Shown here: piece after piece, positions 2 to 17,503 of the stretch
How the letters are laid out: each line of letters starts with the position of its first letter
How positions within the stretch are numbered: the stretch's first letter is position 1
Source of the DNA: a virus
Length of the DNA stretch: 21,006 nucleotides
Direction: 5' to 3' (one strand)
Virus record (IMG/VR): IMGVR_UViG_3300045303_000139
Location: 1-21,006 of that record
Made by a program: the position numbers and the translations under genes
The notes under the pieces: model-generated
What the model saw: only the letters and a program-made list of their open reading frames with translations
The model's database searches: none
Told to the model about the DNA's origin: nothing

Positions 2-268
2 GCCGTGCTGCTGCGCCATACGGTGATGCTGCTGACGCGCAAGATCGCCGGCTGGTCATACCCAGAGATCGGCAAGGCATTGGGCGGCCGCGACCACTCG
101 ACCGTCGTCCATGGAGTTGGTGCCATCCAACGCAGGATGGCCGCAGACCCCGCGCTCGCCGGCAAGATCGAAAGCCTGATGGCGCGGCTCGAAGCGGCGA
201 CACAAAGGGAAGGAGGCAACCCCCGTGAAGCGATCGACCCAACAGAGACAGTGCTATCGCATCGATGA
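2..268 (+). CDS. DnaA domain IV-like DNA-binding protein, 5' end cut by window
   Basis: The readable part matches the C-terminal DNA-binding domain (domain IV) of the replication initiator DnaA. It has the helix-turn-helix ending in the signature GGRDHSTVVH, which in E. coli DnaA (GGRDHTTVLH) contacts the DnaA box. Only a conservative Thr-to-Ser change is seen in the signature. No AAA+ ATPase domain can follow, because the ORF ends about 25 residues after the domain. The reading frame is open to the left edge and the first helices of the domain are missing, so the true start lies outside; GTG at 5 is only the first visible start codon. The last 44 bases overlap the next gene. It could target DnaA boxes on the host origin or on the phage genome, or act as a regulator; which one is inference. 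The family assignment is firm. Confidence 0.8.
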   Translation, partial: AVLLRHTVMLLTRKIAGWSYPEIGKALGGRDHSTVVHGVGAIQRRMAADPALAGKIESLMARLEAATQREGGNPREAIDPTETVLSHR

Positions 269-458
269 ATTCTGCCTGACCCACGGAATGTCGCGCCGCA
301 CTTATTACAGACTGCGCGCCGAGGGCACCGGCCCACACGAAATTCGCATCGGTGATCATGTGCTCATCACTGCGGAGTCGGCCGCACGTTGGCGTGCCAA
401 GCGCGACGCCGCTGCGGTGGTCCAAGCCCGGGCCTCCCGGAAGGCGAGCGCGCGATGA
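225..458 (+). CDS. small helix-turn-helix DNA-binding protein
   Basis: This 77-residue basic protein has an N-terminal segment (residues about 10-35, around YRIDEFCLTHGMSRRTYYRL) that looks like a winged helix-turn-helix of the MerR/AlpA/excisionase kind. A short beta segment (HEIRIGDHVLIT) and a charged C-terminal helix follow. Proteins of this type occur in phages and integrative elements as excisionases or small regulators. The GTG start is chosen because AGGAGG (211-216) lies 8 bases upstream. The gene overlaps the end of the DnaA-like gene, so the two are probably cotranscribed. Its stop shares the bases ATGA with the start of the ORF that runs through the hairpin array. The exact role (excisionase or repressor) cannot be read from the sequence. 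Confidence 0.75.
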   Translation: MKRSTQQRQCYRIDEFCLTHGMSRRTYYRLRAEGTGPHEIRIGDHVLITAESAARWRAKRDAAAVVQARASRKASAR

Positions 459-718
459 CGCCGATGCTCCACAAGATCAGAACTGCGGTCGCCGATTTGC
501 TGGTGATGCCCAATGACCAACTGCGACTGCATGCGCGCGGCCAGCGATTGATTGATGCCCAGACTGTGGATGCCGCGCGCTCTCCTTTCCCACCTCGAAC
601 TGCGGTCGCCAGGAATGATTTGATGCCCATTCGGCGAGTGCGACCGCATGCGCGCGGCCAAGATACTTCTGATGCCCAAACCGTATGTGCCGCGCGCTCT
701 TCTTCTTCTCAGGTCTAA
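455..718 (+). CDS. possible ORF running through the 117-bp repeats
   Basis: An 87-residue ORF starts at an ATG that overlaps the previous stop (ATGA) and runs through the whole hairpin array. Because the repeat period is 117 bases (39 codons), the predicted protein is itself a two-fold repeat, with matching stretches RTAVA, HARGQ, DAQTV and AARS in each half. Against coding: the frame is also open in other registers on both strands across the same bases, no fold or family is recognisable, and conservation follows the hairpin stems and loop motif rather than codons. It may be an incidental ORF over a structured element. Confidence 0.3.
   Translation: MTPMLHKIRTAVADLLVMPNDQLRLHARGQRLIDAQTVDAARSPFPPRTAVARNDLMPIRRVRPHARGQDTSDAQTVCAARSSSSQV
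484..697 (+). repeat. array of four hairpins in two exact-period 117-bp repeats
   Basis: Two tandem units of exactly 117 bases each contain two hairpins. Hairpins are at 484-531, 533-580, 601-648 and 650-697. Every hairpin has a 9-bp stem and a 30-base loop, and in all four the loop carries TGATGCCCA at loop positions 12-20 (504-512, 553-561, 621-629, 670-678). Type A stems are TGCGGTCGC with GCGACCGCA (one G-T wobble in the first copy). Type B stems are GCGCGCGGC with GCCGCGCGC. Six of nine base pairs differ between A and B with pairing kept. A pyrimidine-rich tract follows each B hairpin (581-590, 698-710). The pattern argues for a structured RNA, a protein-binding array or a REP-like dispersed element. 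Confidence 0.85.
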
Positions 719-1328: not shown

Positions 1329-1595
1329 GACCAACTGCTATCACGGACTGCACCAATGACCGGCCGCGACATCCGCAATGCGCGCGCCAAGCTCGGCAAG
1401 CTCTGGGGCCTCGATAGGCCCCTGCGCGCCGCCGAGTTGGGCCGGGCGTTACGCTTGCAGGGACGCGATCCCGGCCGCAGCGTCCTTGACTGGGAGTGCG
1501 AGAAGACCCCCGTGACCGGCCCCGTGAGCCTCGCGATCGAGGCCATGCTTGCAGGCTACCTGCGGGCCTCACAGTACGGAGGCACCAATGACTAA
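1323..1595 (+). CDS. XRE-like DNA-binding regulator next to integrase
   Basis: A 90-residue protein whose residues about 12-75 look like a lambda-repressor-type (XRE) helix-turn-helix. The sequence runs DIRNARAKLGKLWGL, then RAAELGRALRLQGRDPGRSV, then WE and a GPVSLAIEAML helix, a layout seen in short regulators beside rhizobial prophage integrases. The ATG at 1323 has GGAGG 8 bases upstream within leader copy 2. Its last 8 bases (ATGACTAA) overlap the integrase start, so the two are translationally coupled. Likely roles are control of integrase expression or directionality of recombination, and it could bind the dyad in its own duplicated leader; these are inferences. The domain call is moderately secure. 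Confidence 0.7.
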   Translation: MTDQLLSRTAPMTGRDIRNARAKLGKLWGLDRPLRAAELGRALRLQGRDPGRSVLDWECEKTPVTGPVSLAIEAMLAGYLRASQYGGTND

Positions 1596-2661
1596 GGTGC
1601 ATCTCAAATACCTGAGCATCGAGCGCTCCAGGCACGGCAAGGAAGTCGCCTATGTCATGGCTGGGTCCGGCCAGAGGCGGCGCATCCGCATCCATGAGCC
1701 GTTCGGCTCCCCTGGGTTCATGGCCGCCTATGAGGCTGCGGTCGCCGAGCTGGGACAGCCGGTTGCACCGGGCAAGTCCGCTGAGCCGAAGAAGGGTACG
1801 CTGCGCTGGCTCGCCGGCCAGTATTTTGCCTCGCCGGTCTTCCGCAATCTTGATCTGAAGTCGCAAGGGGTGAGGATGTCCGTGATCGAGAGTTGCCTGC
1901 TCGAAGCGACGCCTCGCCCGATGGCCGAGTGTCCGTTGACAATGTTCGGTCCGAATCAAGTTCGTCTGCTGCGTGATCGCAAGTCAGCCCAGCCGGGCGC
2001 CGCCAACAACCGCATGAAGTACCTCTCCGCGATGTTTGGCTGGGCGATCGAAAACCTGCCGGACTCGGTGACCAGCAACCCGGTGCGCGACGTCCAAAAG
2101 CTGAAATATGACAAGGCGGGCTTCCGCCCCTGGACCGAGACCGACTTGGTGAAATTCGAGGATGCCTATCCGGTCGGCACCAAGCAGCGTCTGGCCTTGG
2201 CGCTGCTGCTGTTCACCGGCGCGCGGCGATCCGACGTTGTCGACCTGGGCCCCGCCTGCGTGCGCGACGGCATGATCCGTTTCGTGCCTAAGAAGACCAA
2301 GCGCATTCGCGGCGAGGCAACCCCGAAGCCCTACCTGCCCGAACTGGCGCGGATCGTGGCGGCTACCAAGCTGCAGGGCCGTGAGACCTTCCTTGTGACC
2401 GACTACGGCAAGCCGTTCAGCGTGGCCGGCTTCGGCAACTGGTTTGCCGAGCAGTGCCGCCGGGTCGGCCTCGACGACTGCACCGCCCACGGCCTGCGCA
2501 AGCTGGGTGCCATGCGGGCGGCAATGGCAGGCGCCTCGCACTACCAACTGATGGCCGTCTACGACTGGTCCCAGCCGGCGCAGGCTCAGGCGTATATCAA
2601 CCTCGCCGAGCGCGCCCGCGGTGCTGCCGCGGCGATGGGGTTCCTGGCGAAACGTGGGTGA
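1588..2661 (+). CDS. int: phage tyrosine recombinase (integrase)
   Basis: A 357-residue tyrosine recombinase that would catalyse site-specific integration and excision of the phage genome. The catalytic set is visible: Arg213 in TGARRSDVVDL, a Lys in PKKTK (236-238), His301 and Arg304 in HGLRKLGA, Trp327 in YDWSQPAQAQ in the place of the second His, and Tyr336 in AQAYINLAER. The N-terminal part (about 1-70) is the arm-binding region and about 70-170 is the core-binding domain, with the typical NNRMKYLSAMFGWA helix. Length and layout are normal for rhizobial phage integrases. The ATG at 1588 has ACGGAGG upstream and overlaps the regulator gene. A probable attP lies 78 bases after its stop, as expected for an integrase with an adjacent attachment site. 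Confidence 0.93.
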   Translation: MTKVHLKYLSIERSRHGKEVAYVMAGSGQRRRIRIHEPFGSPGFMAAYEAAVAELGQPVAPGKSAEPKKGTLRWLAGQYFASPVFRNLDLKSQGVRMSVIESCLLEATPRPMAECPLTMFGPNQVRLLRDRKSAQPGAANNRMKYLSAMFGWAIENLPDSVTSNPVRDVQKLKYDKAGFRPWTETDLVKFEDAYPVGTKQRLALALLLFTGARRSDVVDLGPACVRDGMIRFVPKKTKRIRGEATPKPYLPELARIVAATKLQGRETFLVTDYGKPFSVAGFGNWFAEQCRRVGLDDCTAHGLRKLGAMRAAMAGASHYQLMAVYDWSQPAQAQAYINLAERARGAAAAMGFLAKRG

Positions 2662-6458: not shown

Positions 6459-6808
6459 TCGCCTGGACCATCTACGACCACCCCAGCGATTTCCCGCAGT
6501 GCTATGTCGCTCGCAAGTTTCGGCTCGACCAGGGACCGGACCCAGTGCCAACCCCCGGCGTGATAGTCGCCGCCGACATTGACCAGATCCGCAGCATGCT
6601 GGCCGAGCAGGGCCTCATGTGCTTCCCGGCCGCCCCCGGTGATGACGCCGTCATCGTGGAGACGTGGATGGGCTTGCCGGCCGACGAGCGCCCGCCAGTG
6701 CGGAACGCGCTCGCCATCACGGACACCACGGCCTCGACCTCGCGCACGACCGGCGCGCTCACCGTGGCCGGCGGTTTGAGAATGAGCAGGTCAGGAGGAG
6801 CGGAATGA
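6455..6808 (+). CDS. hypothetical protein ending in a tail-fibre motif
   Basis: A 117-residue protein starting MIAWTIYDHPSDFPQCYVAR. The first about 85 residues look like a small folded domain (YVARKF, IVAADIDQIRSMLAEQGL, VETWMGLPADERPPV). The C-terminal end is STSRTTGALTVAGGL followed by 10 residues, and it matches STSPTTGALTVAGGL of the tail fibre encoded on the other strand (9361-9405) at 14 of 15 residues. The underlying DNA differs at several synonymous sites, so this is not a recent copy. The fusion looks like a scar of tail-fibre gene shuffling. The gene overlaps both neighbours by ATGA. Confidence 0.65.
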   Translation: MIAWTIYDHPSDFPQCYVARKFRLDQGPDPVPTPGVIVAADIDQIRSMLAEQGLMCFPAAPGDDAVIVETWMGLPADERPPVRNALAITDTTASTSRTTGALTVAGGLRMSRSGGAE

Positions 6809-8410: not shown

Positions 8411-10857
8411 CAGACGACGCTCCTCTGTGCTTGCTCCAGTTTCGCCACGCGGCGCCGCAGTGCTTGCACCTCGGCGATCAGCACCGGCACGAAGCGGCTA
8501 TAGTCAACGCCCCAGCGCAGATCGTCGTCGTCCGCGCGTGGTGCAGACACTGCATCCGGATAGACCTCGATGGCCTCCTGTGCGATCACACCCACGCCGC
8601 GCTCGCCGCTGGTCTTCCAGCGAAAGTCCCAGATTTTCAGCGCGTCGATGACGTTGCCTGCGCCCACATAGTCGCGCAGGTCTTCTTTCAATCGACCATC
8701 CGAGACGGTGTTGTAGGCAACACCTGTGCCCGGCGCCCCGCCCACGATGCTGATGTTGCCGAGCGCTGCGGCGCCGTTGTTATTCAAGAAATCCATGAAC
8801 ACACCAGCGGCACCCGCCGAAGTGCCGACGATGTCCATGCCGCCCTGGGTGCCGGCGTCGAATTGAAATTGATGCCTGCCGCCATAAGGACTCGTCACCC
8901 GCGCTGCCCCACCGCAAACCAACTTGTTGCTGATGGTCACATCTCCGGGGATTGTCACGCTGGCATCGCTGTTAAGACGCAGGGCATCAGCCGGACTTGT
9001 CGAGCCCACAGGCGTCGTCCGAAACACGACGTAGGCTGGGGTCGATGTCGGCGTCCACGTGCCGCCGGCCTTAAATTGGATGGCAACGGCAGCGCCGGCC
9101 GGGAATGCCGACCCGTTGTGACCGGAGGCTGTGAATAACCCGATAAGCTGATCCGTAATCACTGCGCCGGGACTGGCCGCCGTGTTGCTGGCGGCACGAA
9201 AATCCATGGCGGGGGCGCCACCGTAAGCCTCGACCGAAATCCGCGCGTTGCTGCCGTTCGGCCCCCCGAATTGCGCGACGGAGGTGGGGAGCGGCGTCGA
9301 GAGCGGCGACGCATTGAGACTGACGGTAAGCTTGCCTGCGGCGTTGAGCGCGCCCGCCACGCCAAGACCGCCAGCAACAGTCAACGCGCCAGTCGTTGGC
9401 GAGGTTGACGGTGTTGTACTCGTCACCGTGTTTGTGGCGCTGGTCGAGCCAGTGATGTTGACGATCGAGCCATACTGCCCGCCGGCAGCGATAATACCGG
9501 GTGCGCTCCCTGGGAAATACAGCGGATCGTCCGGCACCCCCCCTCCCTGAACCACCGACCCGTTGCCGGCAAAGAAACGCGTGCCCGTGACCGTGTGACC
9601 ATTAAGATTGATCGCCCCGTGAAAAGAGATCGATCCTTGCCCGCCAAAAGCAAAGTAACTTGGCGAGAGATCGGCCGCGATATTTATGGTTCCGTAAGCC
9701 TGAAAAGAGCCGCCACTCTCAGCAACAACATGAGCAAAACTCGGTGTCCCTGAAATCCTATAGTCATTCCCTAAAATCACGGAGCCGCCATTACCAACTT
9801 GAATATGCGTCTGACACGCCCCAAAATCCATGCCGGGGCCGACGAAAGCTATTGACTGATTTGCGCACGCAATTCCGGCTGCATTTGAGATCAGTTTGAA
9901 ATTGTCGATGGAATACGGCCCAAAGTACAATTCGAAGCAAGACCCACCCATCGAGGTCGAGTCGATCACCGAATTGACGCCGCCCCTAAATCCAAATGCA
10001 GCTCCGCCCTGTGCTCCCGGCGTGCCGTGAACCGCAAGATGGAAGTTGCCGTGAAATGTGGTGTTGTCAGCCTGAATGATAAGTACGCGCGTATTCGCGC
10101 CTGCGGTGCCTCTCCCATCAACATCTGCGTTGATGTTATAAAAAGCCAGCGATCCATCCCGGTAAGCGTTGCCGGGAGTAAGTCCATCGTTATTGTCGTT
10201 GCCGGTGTCTGGATTGTAGTAAATGGGTAGATTCCCGCCCGGCGGACGCCACCTGTTTTGTCTGAGGCATTCCCAGGTGCCGCCGCTCCGGTAGACGATG
10301 GCCGTCTGGTGCGGATAAAGCCTAAAGCGCTCGACTGTCGTCACCCCAACGACATCTTTCGCATAGCTGTCGTCCTGATTGACGATGAGGACCAGGAAAT
10401 TTGCGTCGTAGGTTGTCGGATCGCCGAATGTCACGGTGTACTGAGCCGCGCCAGCCATCGCCAGCGTCGAGCCGTTCTCGGAATTGTCGACGGTGAAGGC
10501 ACCAAGCTTCGGTATCCGAAAATTCGGAAATGTCGTGTCGGCGCCAGGACCGGAGAAGACACTCAAATCCTGCAAGCGCACCGCGTCATACGGCTGCACT
10601 GCCGCCGGCAGGTTACGGATGAAAAATCCGTTCATGTTCTGGTTTTCGGTCGCCGGGTTCTGCATGCCCGGCACGTAGCCAGTCGGCCCCTGCGGTCCAG
10701 GCGGCCCCACCGGCCCCACCGGCCCCTGCGGTCCAGGTGGCCCCTGCTCCAGCGTCTGGATGATCTCCAGCTCTTGGTCCAAGACAACGACAACATCGGC
10801 AGGACCGGGATCGATCCTGGTGTCCGCATCGGTGTTGTCGACAAATACTTCGGTCAT
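8410..10857 (-). CDS. tail fibre/spike with collagen-like segment and S74 chaperone domain
   Basis: An 815-residue receptor-binding tail protein. An N-terminal attachment region is followed by a collagen-like run of Gly-X-Y triplets (about 39-60). Next comes a mid region with NPDTGNDNNDG and predicted parallel beta-helix repeats (about 215-460). Repeats with TTGALTVAGGLGVAG (about 488-500) and beta-rich segments follow. The C-terminal intramolecular chaperone (peptidase S74 type) occupies about 719-815. The S74 dyad is SDGRLKEDLRD (Ser719, Lys724), so the domain should promote trimer folding and cut itself off before Ser719. A coiled coil (VQALRRRVAKLEQAQ) ends the protein. Much of 9690-10260 has visibly lower GC than its surroundings, which suggests a module acquired by exchange. 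The start overlaps the previous gene (ATGA). Confidence 0.9.
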   Translation of the reverse strand: MTEVFVDNTDADTRIDPGPADVVVVLDQELEIIQTLEQGPPGPQGPVGPVGPPGPQGPTGYVPGMQNPATENQNMNGFFIRNLPAAVQPYDAVRLQDLSVFSGPGADTTFPNFRIPKLGAFTVDNSENGSTLAMAGAAQYTVTFGDPTTYDANFLVLIVNQDDSYAKDVVGVTTVERFRLYPHQTAIVYRSGGTWECLRQNRWRPPGGNLPIYYNPDTGNDNNDGLTPGNAYRDGSLAFYNINADVDGRGTAGANTRVLIIQADNTTFHGNFHLAVHGTPGAQGGAAFGFRGGVNSVIDSTSMGGSCFELYFGPYSIDNFKLISNAAGIACANQSIAFVGPGMDFGACQTHIQVGNGGSVILGNDYRISGTPSFAHVVAESGGSFQAYGTINIAADLSPSYFAFGGQGSISFHGAINLNGHTVTGTRFFAGNGSVVQGGGVPDDPLYFPGSAPGIIAAGGQYGSIVNITGSTSATNTVTSTTPSTSPTTGALTVAGGLGVAGALNAAGKLTVSLNASPLSTPLPTSVAQFGGPNGSNARISVEAYGGAPAMDFRAASNTAASPGAVITDQLIGLFTASGHNGSAFPAGAAVAIQFKAGGTWTPTSTPAYVVFRTTPVGSTSPADALRLNSDASVTIPGDVTISNKLVCGGAARVTSPYGGRHQFQFDAGTQGGMDIVGTSAGAAGVFMDFLNNNGAAALGNISIVGGAPGTGVAYNTVSDGRLKEDLRDYVGAGNVIDALKIWDFRWKTSGERGVGVIAQEAIEVYPDAVSAPRADDDDLRWGVDYSRFVPVLIAEVQALRRRVAKLEQAQRSVV

Positions 10858-16342: not shown

Positions 16343-17503
16343 TTACGGTTCCGGCGGCGTTGGCGGTTGCGACGGCGCGGGTGACGGATCGAAGTTCGGC
16401 GATCCCTTCAGCAGGCCGGGCAGCACCAGGTCGAGCACCGTCTCGGTGCCGTTGGTGCTGTCCTGGGTGAAGGTGACGTTCTGGATTTTCATGTCTTGAT
16501 TGAGCATTGCCATCGGCGACCGCACGAACACCTGGTCGCCAGGCGTCCACAGCCTGCTCTCGTTGTACAGCCAGCCCTGCACCGTGATGGTGGCCTGCAC
16601 CTCGGTGTCGTCGTGCCAGACGCGCTCATTCTCGACGCGCGCCTGCACCTCGGCCTGCGTCGTCACCGGCTGCTCGGCAGCGGTAATCAATTTGCTGTAG
16701 GGCTGCGTGGTGATGCGGCTCGCCACGGTCGCATGCAGGTCGCTCATGTCCGAACCAGATCGGCTGTCGGTCGCGGTCCCCTGCGCGCGCGTGTCGTATT
16801 GTTCATACGTCATGTCGTGCCGGATGGTGCATTGGCATGACTTGATGTTCTGGCCTTCGATCAGTTGTGTGACGGTGGGGAACGTGTGCGGCCCGATCAG
16901 CAGGAAATTGCCGTGCGCGTCCGACCCCATCACGATGCCACGCGGGCGCGCCAGCCGCTCGAGGAAGTCCCAGATCAGTTCGCCGTGCTCGTTCTGCAGA
17001 TGCACGAACGGCGTCAGGTCGAGCTTGCCGACGGTCTTGATGCCGACCGGGTATGGCGCGAGCACCTCCTGCGCCACCTGTAGGATGTTCTTGCCGTCGA
17101 ACGAGCCGGTCTTGGTATCGACGCTCGATCGCGCGGCCCAGGCGGTGACGCTCTTGCCCTGCAGCATCACGCCGTGGCTGGTGGCGTTATAGGCCGCCTG
17201 GCGGATCTCGATGACGCCCGACACCACCTGCACTTGGGCGAGCGAAACGGTACATTTGTCACCCGGCTTAAATTGCAGCTTCTCCCAGAGCGGCACGTCG
17301 TAGGGCTGCTTCCCGAACACCGGATCGCGCTCGGCGGCGGCGAACCTGAAATAAGTGAACGGGTCGGCCCAGCGGCCTTGGACGAACACCGACTCCCAGT
17401 CGTCGAACTCGACGCCGTTGACGGTGAGCACCGCGGTTTCTTGCGGCTTCGACGCCGGCCGTGGCGGCGGGCTGGACGGAAGCTCGACGACCTTGATGCC
17501 CAT
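16343..17503 (-). CDS. Mu gpP-like tail/baseplate hub protein
   Basis: A 386-residue protein of the Mu gpP (gp44) family, which forms the baseplate hub ring beneath the spike. It contains VLTVNGVEFDDWESVFVQ near the start, then GVIEIRQAAYNATSHGVMLQ and KSVTAWAARSSV, then NILQVAQEVLAPY, ELIWDFLERLARPRGI and the C-terminal WTPGDQVFVRSPMAMLN, in the order of that family. A Pro-rich tail ends at TAA 16343. The frame continues with a matching Pro-Gln tail of 11 codons to TAG at 16307, which overlaps the spike's ribosome site. The start ATG 17503 has only a weak AAAGG upstream. Confidence 0.88.
   Translation of the reverse strand: MGIKVVELPSSPPPRPASKPQETAVLTVNGVEFDDWESVFVQGRWADPFTYFRFAAAERDPVFGKQPYDVPLWEKLQFKPGDKCTVSLAQVQVVSGVIEIRQAAYNATSHGVMLQGKSVTAWAARSSVDTKTGSFDGKNILQVAQEVLAPYPVGIKTVGKLDLTPFVHLQNEHGELIWDFLERLARPRGIVMGSDAHGNFLLIGPHTFPTVTQLIEGQNIKSCQCTIRHDMTYEQYDTRAQGTATDSRSGSDMSDLHATVASRITTQPYSKLITAAEQPVTTQAEVQARVENERVWHDDTEVQATITVQGWLYNESRLWTPGDQVFVRSPMAMLNQDMKIQNVTFTQDSTNGTETVLDLVLPGLLKGSPNFDPSPAPSQPPTPPEP

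Follow-up and report, generated by a model that had tools for sequence, protein, structure and literature searches.

What are the four hairpins of identical geometry that stand in a row near the start of IMG/VR virus record IMGVR_UViG_3300045303_000139? The stretch of DNA analyzed here, referred to as the window, comprises positions 1 to 21,006 of that record, and a sequence-only reading of it had taken the hairpins for a structured functional RNA or a multi-site binding array, with a repeated binding site for an RNA-binding protein, an RNA sponge, or a repetitive extragenic palindromic (REP) repeat family as its possible roles. The general notion of a structured RNA repeatedly recognized by one protein held, whereas the sponge and REP roles did not: the hairpins are identified here, with a probability of about 0.9, as a small TIGR stem-loop guide-RNA array of the TasA type in an uncultured temperate phage. 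TIGR stem-loop arrays consist of tandem units with two variable spacers of 8-12 nt each, every spacer lying between a box C and a box D, and with variable palindromic stems in place of the edge repeats; a contig from the Peromyscus gut with 13 stem-loops and TasA is a published example (Faure et al. 2025, PMC12045711). The window unit, stem-CCA-N9-UG-AUGC-CCA-N9-UG-stem', has the published layout (PMC12045711). The type of array is already known, hence the window array is not a new kind.

All four hairpins lie on the plus strand and have the geometry first ascribed to them, namely 9-bp stems, 30-nt loops, and spacings of 1, 20, and 1 nt. Unit 1 (484..531) carries a type A stem (TGCGGTCGC/GCGACTGCA) around spacer A (495-503, ATTTGCTGG), the loop repeat (504-512), and spacer B (513-521, ATGACCAAC), and unit 2 (533..580) a type B stem (GCGCGCGGC/GCCGCGCGC) around spacer A (544-552, GCGATTGAT), the loop repeat (553-561), and spacer B (562-570, GACTGTGGA). 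A pyrimidine-rich linker (581..600, plus strand) separates this dyad from the second one, formed by unit 3 (601..648; type A stem; spacer A 612-620, GGAATGATT; loop repeat 621-629; spacer B 630-638, TTCGGCGAG) and unit 4 (650..697; type B stem; spacer A 661-669, AGATACTTC; loop repeat 670-678; spacer B 679-687, AACCGTATG), and a further pyrimidine-rich tract (698..711, plus strand) follows the last B hairpin. The two stem types differ in six of nine pairs, and the sole wobble is G487-T528. The nonamer TGATGCCCA occupies loop positions 12-20 in all four hairpins, as had been reported; the accompanying statement that the loops otherwise differ widely needed refinement, since the differing parts are two segments with a fixed length of 9 nt and the conserved part exceeds the nonamer. 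CCA-N9-UG is present twice per unit, with the variant CCG instead of CCA at the first box C of unit 1. The same variant occurs in most of the six units of one relative (L043) and is evidently tolerated.

Five copies of the nonamer are found in the 21-kb window, compared with 0.23 expected, and four of them belong to the array. The fifth (17494-17502) overlaps the start of a baseplate gene without any stem geometry and is attributed to chance. Single hairpins fold stably (minimum free energy between -17.8 and -20.6 kcal/mol, z between -1.5 and -3.2). The fold of the whole array is unremarkable (z -1.3), because arms of the same type, such as the identical A arms, can pair across units. Rfam covariance models gave nothing at the gathering score over the window, and just noise at E up to 10.

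Relatives of the array were collected by a pattern scan of IMG/VR, first with two nonamers and then with GGCCA-N9-TGATGCCCA-N9-TGCC, which retrieved contigs full of such units; all of these relatives are metagenomic, and their records may be incomplete. The family comprises about 400 distinct guides in these data. Its unit consists of a variable stem of 8-16 bp, box C (CCA), a 9-nt spacer A, UGAUGCCCA, a 9-nt spacer B, and box D (UG), with the loop consensus C[A/G] N9 TGATGCCCA N9 T. The invariant frame is stem-C[A/G]-N9-TG-NNNN-CCA-N9-TG-stem', within which several versions of the loop repeat occur (TGATGCCCA, TGAAGCCCA, and TGAAACCCA among them), and both 9-mers are free in sequence and constant in length, the spacers being near-random at nine of nine positions. 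Across the complete set of retrieved loci, the nonamer is enclosed by stems of 8 bp or more 131 times in the (12,10) geometry and at most twice in any unrelated one. The window has four tandem units and relatives have up to 26; adjacent units have different stems in 156 of 157 pairs. Spacing within a dyad is usually 0-2 nt, and dyads are separated by a pyrimidine-rich linker of mostly 10-20 nt. The pyrimidine-rich tracts remarked upon after the B hairpins are real and a trait of the family (61% pyrimidine in long linkers vs. 48% background).

The stem covariation suspected from the four window hairpins has statistical support in homologues. Among 136 distinct stems, chosen by sequence motif alone, 87% of positions are paired, compared with 56% for shuffled partners (maximum 59%); compensatory types occur at nearly every stem pair, and the closing C-G pair is almost invariant. 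The same comparison bears on the idea that the repeats are part of a coding open reading frame (ORF, 455-718) under protein-level selection. A frame does remain open across the array, and 32 of the 42 arrays with at least three units have an open forward frame; reverse frames, however, are often open too, the spacers vary at every position, and the stems covary. Conservation with codon periodicity is absent across homologues. The coding explanation is extremely improbable and was rejected on account of the mixed codon phases of units within one array together with the near-random spacers.

One protein family is common to the array-bearing contigs and is encoded among the arrays. Searching from hairpins to proteins, PF02371 (IS110/Nop-like) was found in 16 of 19 array-bearing records, 11 of them above the curated cut-off. 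Searching in the opposite direction, 67 of 80 loci found by the protein contained units, 373 of the 376 units being on the Tas strand, and a shuffled-sequence control gave 0 units. The profile of the partner protein matched the TasR structure 9mty with E 4.5e-7, and its AlphaFold model (pLDDT 84.5) retrieved TasH or TasR as all of the top six matches in a Foldseek search of PDB (E 4.5e-5 to 2.3e-4). TasA of the relatives is a solo Nop-domain protein of 290 aa, for which a Pfam search returned no RuvC or HNH match. A Tas gene stands beside the array in 40 of the 47 entries with at least three units, a set that was itself partly found by TasA. A tblastn search with the protein of the relative L159 gave no TasA in INPHARED phages or PLSDB plasmids, and none was found in 385 alphaproteobacterial genomes. 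The tasA operon of ten array phages also encodes a family of 210-270 aa proteins with a weak DUF6195 match (L136 3869-4573, L039 3290-3940, and eight more), which is a candidate accessory gene and itself a possible guide target (TLHDL).

These associations bear directly on the view that the hairpins arose by chance, belong to a REP-type family, or present the nonamer as an RNA sponge. Several copies, an invariant loop, and GC-rich stems would suit such a view; nevertheless, it is left with a negligible probability by the association with TasA in both search directions, the fixed spacer lengths, and the box C/D logic, and the search from Tas to hairpins refutes it as the main explanation. The nonamer amounts to box D, linker, and box C of a dual-spacer guide RNA, which removes the basis for a sponge. 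A REP family is contradicted by the clustering of units beside a Tas gene in phages and by the near absence of stems in pattern-bearing bacterial genome contigs, where just one of the 120 pattern matches listed has a stem of at least 6 bp.

How the two spacers of a TIGR unit read a target is suggested by their covariation. The ninth positions of spacers A and B (A9 and B9) are Watson-Crick complementary in 48% of 400 thinned spacer pairs, compared with 24% expected (p~7e-26), and G-U pairs account for 22% (17% expected); no other of the 81 position pairs behaves in this way. If a single DNA site spans spacer A and the complement of spacer B, such complementarity would imply a shared central base pair, and spacers A and B in this clade appear to share it in a 17-bp target. 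Alternatively, A9 and B9 might pair within the RNA and covary for that reason. The orientation, A followed by the reverse complement (rc) of B, was deduced in this analysis from the 8-nt 3' overhangs of the published cleavage rule (PMC12045711), and valid target counts omit the center base, being of the form A1-8 N rc(B1-8). Independently of the covariation, sites near arrays with a 1-bp overlap comprised 2 exact, 17 one-mismatch, and 151 two-mismatch matches (0.17, 7.9, and 117 expected, respectively), or 170 vs. 125 expected with up to two mismatches in total; this excess was confined to the 1-bp overlap, and spacings 0, 2, and 3 gave nothing comparable. The center base equals A9 in 9 of the 19 near matches with at most one mismatch, somewhat above a quarter. 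A first count (25 one-mismatch matches vs. 2.2 expected) was discarded because it was inflated by the A9/B9 covariation and by duplicate contigs. In the published study no obvious spacer covariation was seen, and TasR was tested at gaps of 0-2 bp and more (PMC12045711).

The genes of array-bearing phages contain 49 amino-acid-identical matches with at most two nucleotide mismatches, compared with about 20.6 when the pairs are permuted. Distinct guides from separate phages converge on identical codons, namely FKHVP of a recT-like gene and REEIM of the YqaJ exonuclease, and guides also match the tasA sites FAMKV, KAFLK, and MLAKP. Two clean exact cases are provided by a guide of phage G019, identical to tasA of G012, G015, and G018 (the tasA of G019 itself differs at 6 of 17 positions in a region of 88% identity), and by a guide of G002 identical to a dnaA-like gene of G011. 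As for the window, the target implied by unit 4, AGATACTTCATACGGTT, corresponds to codons NRMKY(L) of its own integrase gene (2008..2024, minus strand) with two synonymous mismatches. The integrases of the four nearest siblings and of L159 show 2-5 mismatches to unit 4, with NRMKY kept in all, and unit 6 of L159, which shares spacer A with window unit 4 and addresses the same integrase site, has seven mismatches to the gene of L159 itself. The 17-mer implied by unit 1 encodes MTNQQ and matches, but for two synonymous changes, the start-codon site of a gene in sibling phage G003. In IMG/VR, the only contigs with an exact copy of the unit 1 or unit 4 17-mer showed no detectable relationship to the array phages. 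Spacer halves common to different units are mildly above chance (14 and 26 vs. 8.7); the cases of AGATACTTC and CTCCTTCGG are suggestive of spacer shuffling between units, for which no claim is made.

That the guides are aimed at conserved genes of sister phages is, on this statistical signal, about an even proposition. The same matches allow an autoregulatory alternative, in which the guides would address early genes of their own phage (tasA, recT, and integrase) and tune the lytic or lysogenic program. Amino-acid-identical matches with at most two mismatches in own genomes, partly in the same operon, number 8 vs. 0.38 expected (300 permutations, maximum 4), a count resting on the stricter record grouping that keeps sibling phages apart, and a nucleotide-only test points in the same direction (19 vs. 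about 10 with at most two mismatches, at spacing 1 only). Some of the target counts also took in 15 protein rows read as DNA (about 8 kb, a negligible amount), which this nucleotide-only test left out. None of the amino-acid-identical own matches is exact, however, and all own-gene matches carry 1-3 synonymous mismatches; protein-preserving changes would not be expected in intended targets, which makes autoregulation rather unlikely.

Under the sister-phage model, the array would be transcribed with the early operon, and each hairpin would be processed into one guide RNA. The stem would hold its two 9-nt spacers, both flanked by box C (CCA) and box D (UG), on a TasA dimer, TasA being a Nop-domain protein without a nuclease. 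Spacer A would then pair with one strand of the target DNA and spacer B with the other. The likeliest role of such binding would be the silencing of conserved early genes (integrase, recombinases, and tasA) of competing sister phages, with the phage's own copies presumably spared through synonymous differences, and the window phage would rely on a TasA whose gene lies beyond the record or on another element. The fullest version of this model, in which the arrays are weapons between sister phages directed at 17-bp sites in integrase, recT, exonuclease, and tasA, own genes are synonymously recoded, and some phages, that of the window included, carry guides only and borrow the TasA of a rival, is possible but doubtful.

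Several points weigh against reading the window hairpins as a TIGR array with this function. Searches of the 21-kb record with PF01798, PF02371, and a broad family profile detected no Tas gene. Related phages yielded no site identical to a window guide, a recognizable target exists for a small fraction of guides only, and the properly controlled excess of sibling targets is modest in absolute terms. Since TasA has no nuclease, its effect on the target, silencing by occupancy, is one that we infer.

The lack of a Tas gene extends to a sister contig. The end of this 14-kb contig (L160) overlaps the start of the window by 190 bp (98.4% identity) within a dnaA-like gene, the product of which matches Bac_DnaA_C with E 1e-16 in L160. 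Upstream of the overlap this contig carries, in order, an exonuclease, an array, a phrog_3657 protein (a conserved phage protein, which we infer to be a RecT-type annealing protein), a second array, a small gene, and dnaA; no tas was found in its 14 kb. Because both the window record and L160 are devoid of a Tas gene, the window array is either cut off from a tas outside the record or an orphan served in trans. Within the TIGR identification, the second option, with guides that use TasA from a co-resident sister phage or serve as its decoys, is credible and falls just short of an even chance. TasA is absent from the window, L160, and G002, and the hairpins are intact in Tas-less records, as if still selected; on the other hand, all these records are partial or of uncertain completeness, so that tasA may lie just outside them, and a TasA too diverged for recognition is conceivable, although the profile covers members near 25% identity. 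Tas is lacking in 7 of the 47 listed entries with at least three units, two of these seven being pieces of one contig, G002. Records with at least three intact TIGR hairpins and no recognizable Tas include G023 (73 kb), G034 (88 kb), G025 (22 kb), and G002 (41 kb); the last (40.6 kb, 9 units, no TasA) is a stronger orphan case than the window.

In the closest relative, L159, tasA lies directly upstream of the array, which has the two stems of the window array and shares one spacer A with it. Homology between L159 and the window starts abruptly inside the array (window 597, L159 1484), with 92% DNA identity downstream and just array similarity upstream, so that the TIGR arrays coincide there with a mosaic recombination junction. 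The window itself encodes contractile-tail proteins (baseplate hub and wedge, tail fiber), an endolysin, and an integrase, and belongs to a temperate phage. Its array follows the 3' end of a gene with DnaA domain IV (2..268, plus strand) and, immediately upstream, an AlpA/HTH_17-like excisionase-type gene (225..458, plus strand; HTH_17 E 9e-4, a weak match), and precedes the tyrosine integrase gene (1588..2661, plus strand; PF00589 E 2e-8). A 61-nt direct repeat (1005-1065 and 1268-1328, 92% identical) ends at a ribosome-binding site and start codon; its copies precede two different small ORFs, contain a GGGGCAGCGCCCC hairpin, and represent a duplicated leader. A short ORF (6708-6774) carries the motif STSRTTGALTVAGGL, which closely resembles one in the phage's own tail fiber gene (8413-10857, minus strand) and may be a displaced fragment or a fusion.

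According to the discoverers of TIGR systems (PMC12045711), it is unknown what their natural targets and purpose are. A concrete, testable answer would be offered by this clade: the guides would read short, conserved sites within genes of sibling phages, and synonymous change would spare the phage's own copies. Four features are new relative to the literature: dyads in which the stem types alternate, the overlap of the two spacers by one base pair, arrays in records that lack tas, and candidates for natural targets. A target rule with one shared central base pair departs from the published rule, and arrays without a tas gene, if true, would constitute a new ecological strategy.

Compared with the published TIGR stem-loop arrays with TasA (PMC12045711), the present ones are distinguished by two alternating stem types in dyads spaced by 1 nt, a strongly conserved loop repeat UGAUGCCCA, the A9/B9 covariation with a 1-bp spacer overlap, and the absence of tas from the window record. 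TIGR dual-repeat arrays with TasR or TasH share the 9-nt spacers, the UG...CCA loop repeat, and a Nop-domain effector, whereas here variable stems replace the edge repeat and the effector has no nuclease. The IS110 bridge RNA with the IS621 and ISCro4 recombinases is similar in its related RNA-binding domain (PF02371; lower-rank Foldseek matches) and in a guide held by stem-loops; in contrast, the present system has no DEDD transposase domain and many guides per array, and mobile element ends were not seen. Box C/D snoRNAs (sRNAs) likewise have C and D boxes flanking the guides and a Nop-domain protein, but neither a kink-turn nor fibrillarin was seen here, and the target would be DNA rather than RNA.
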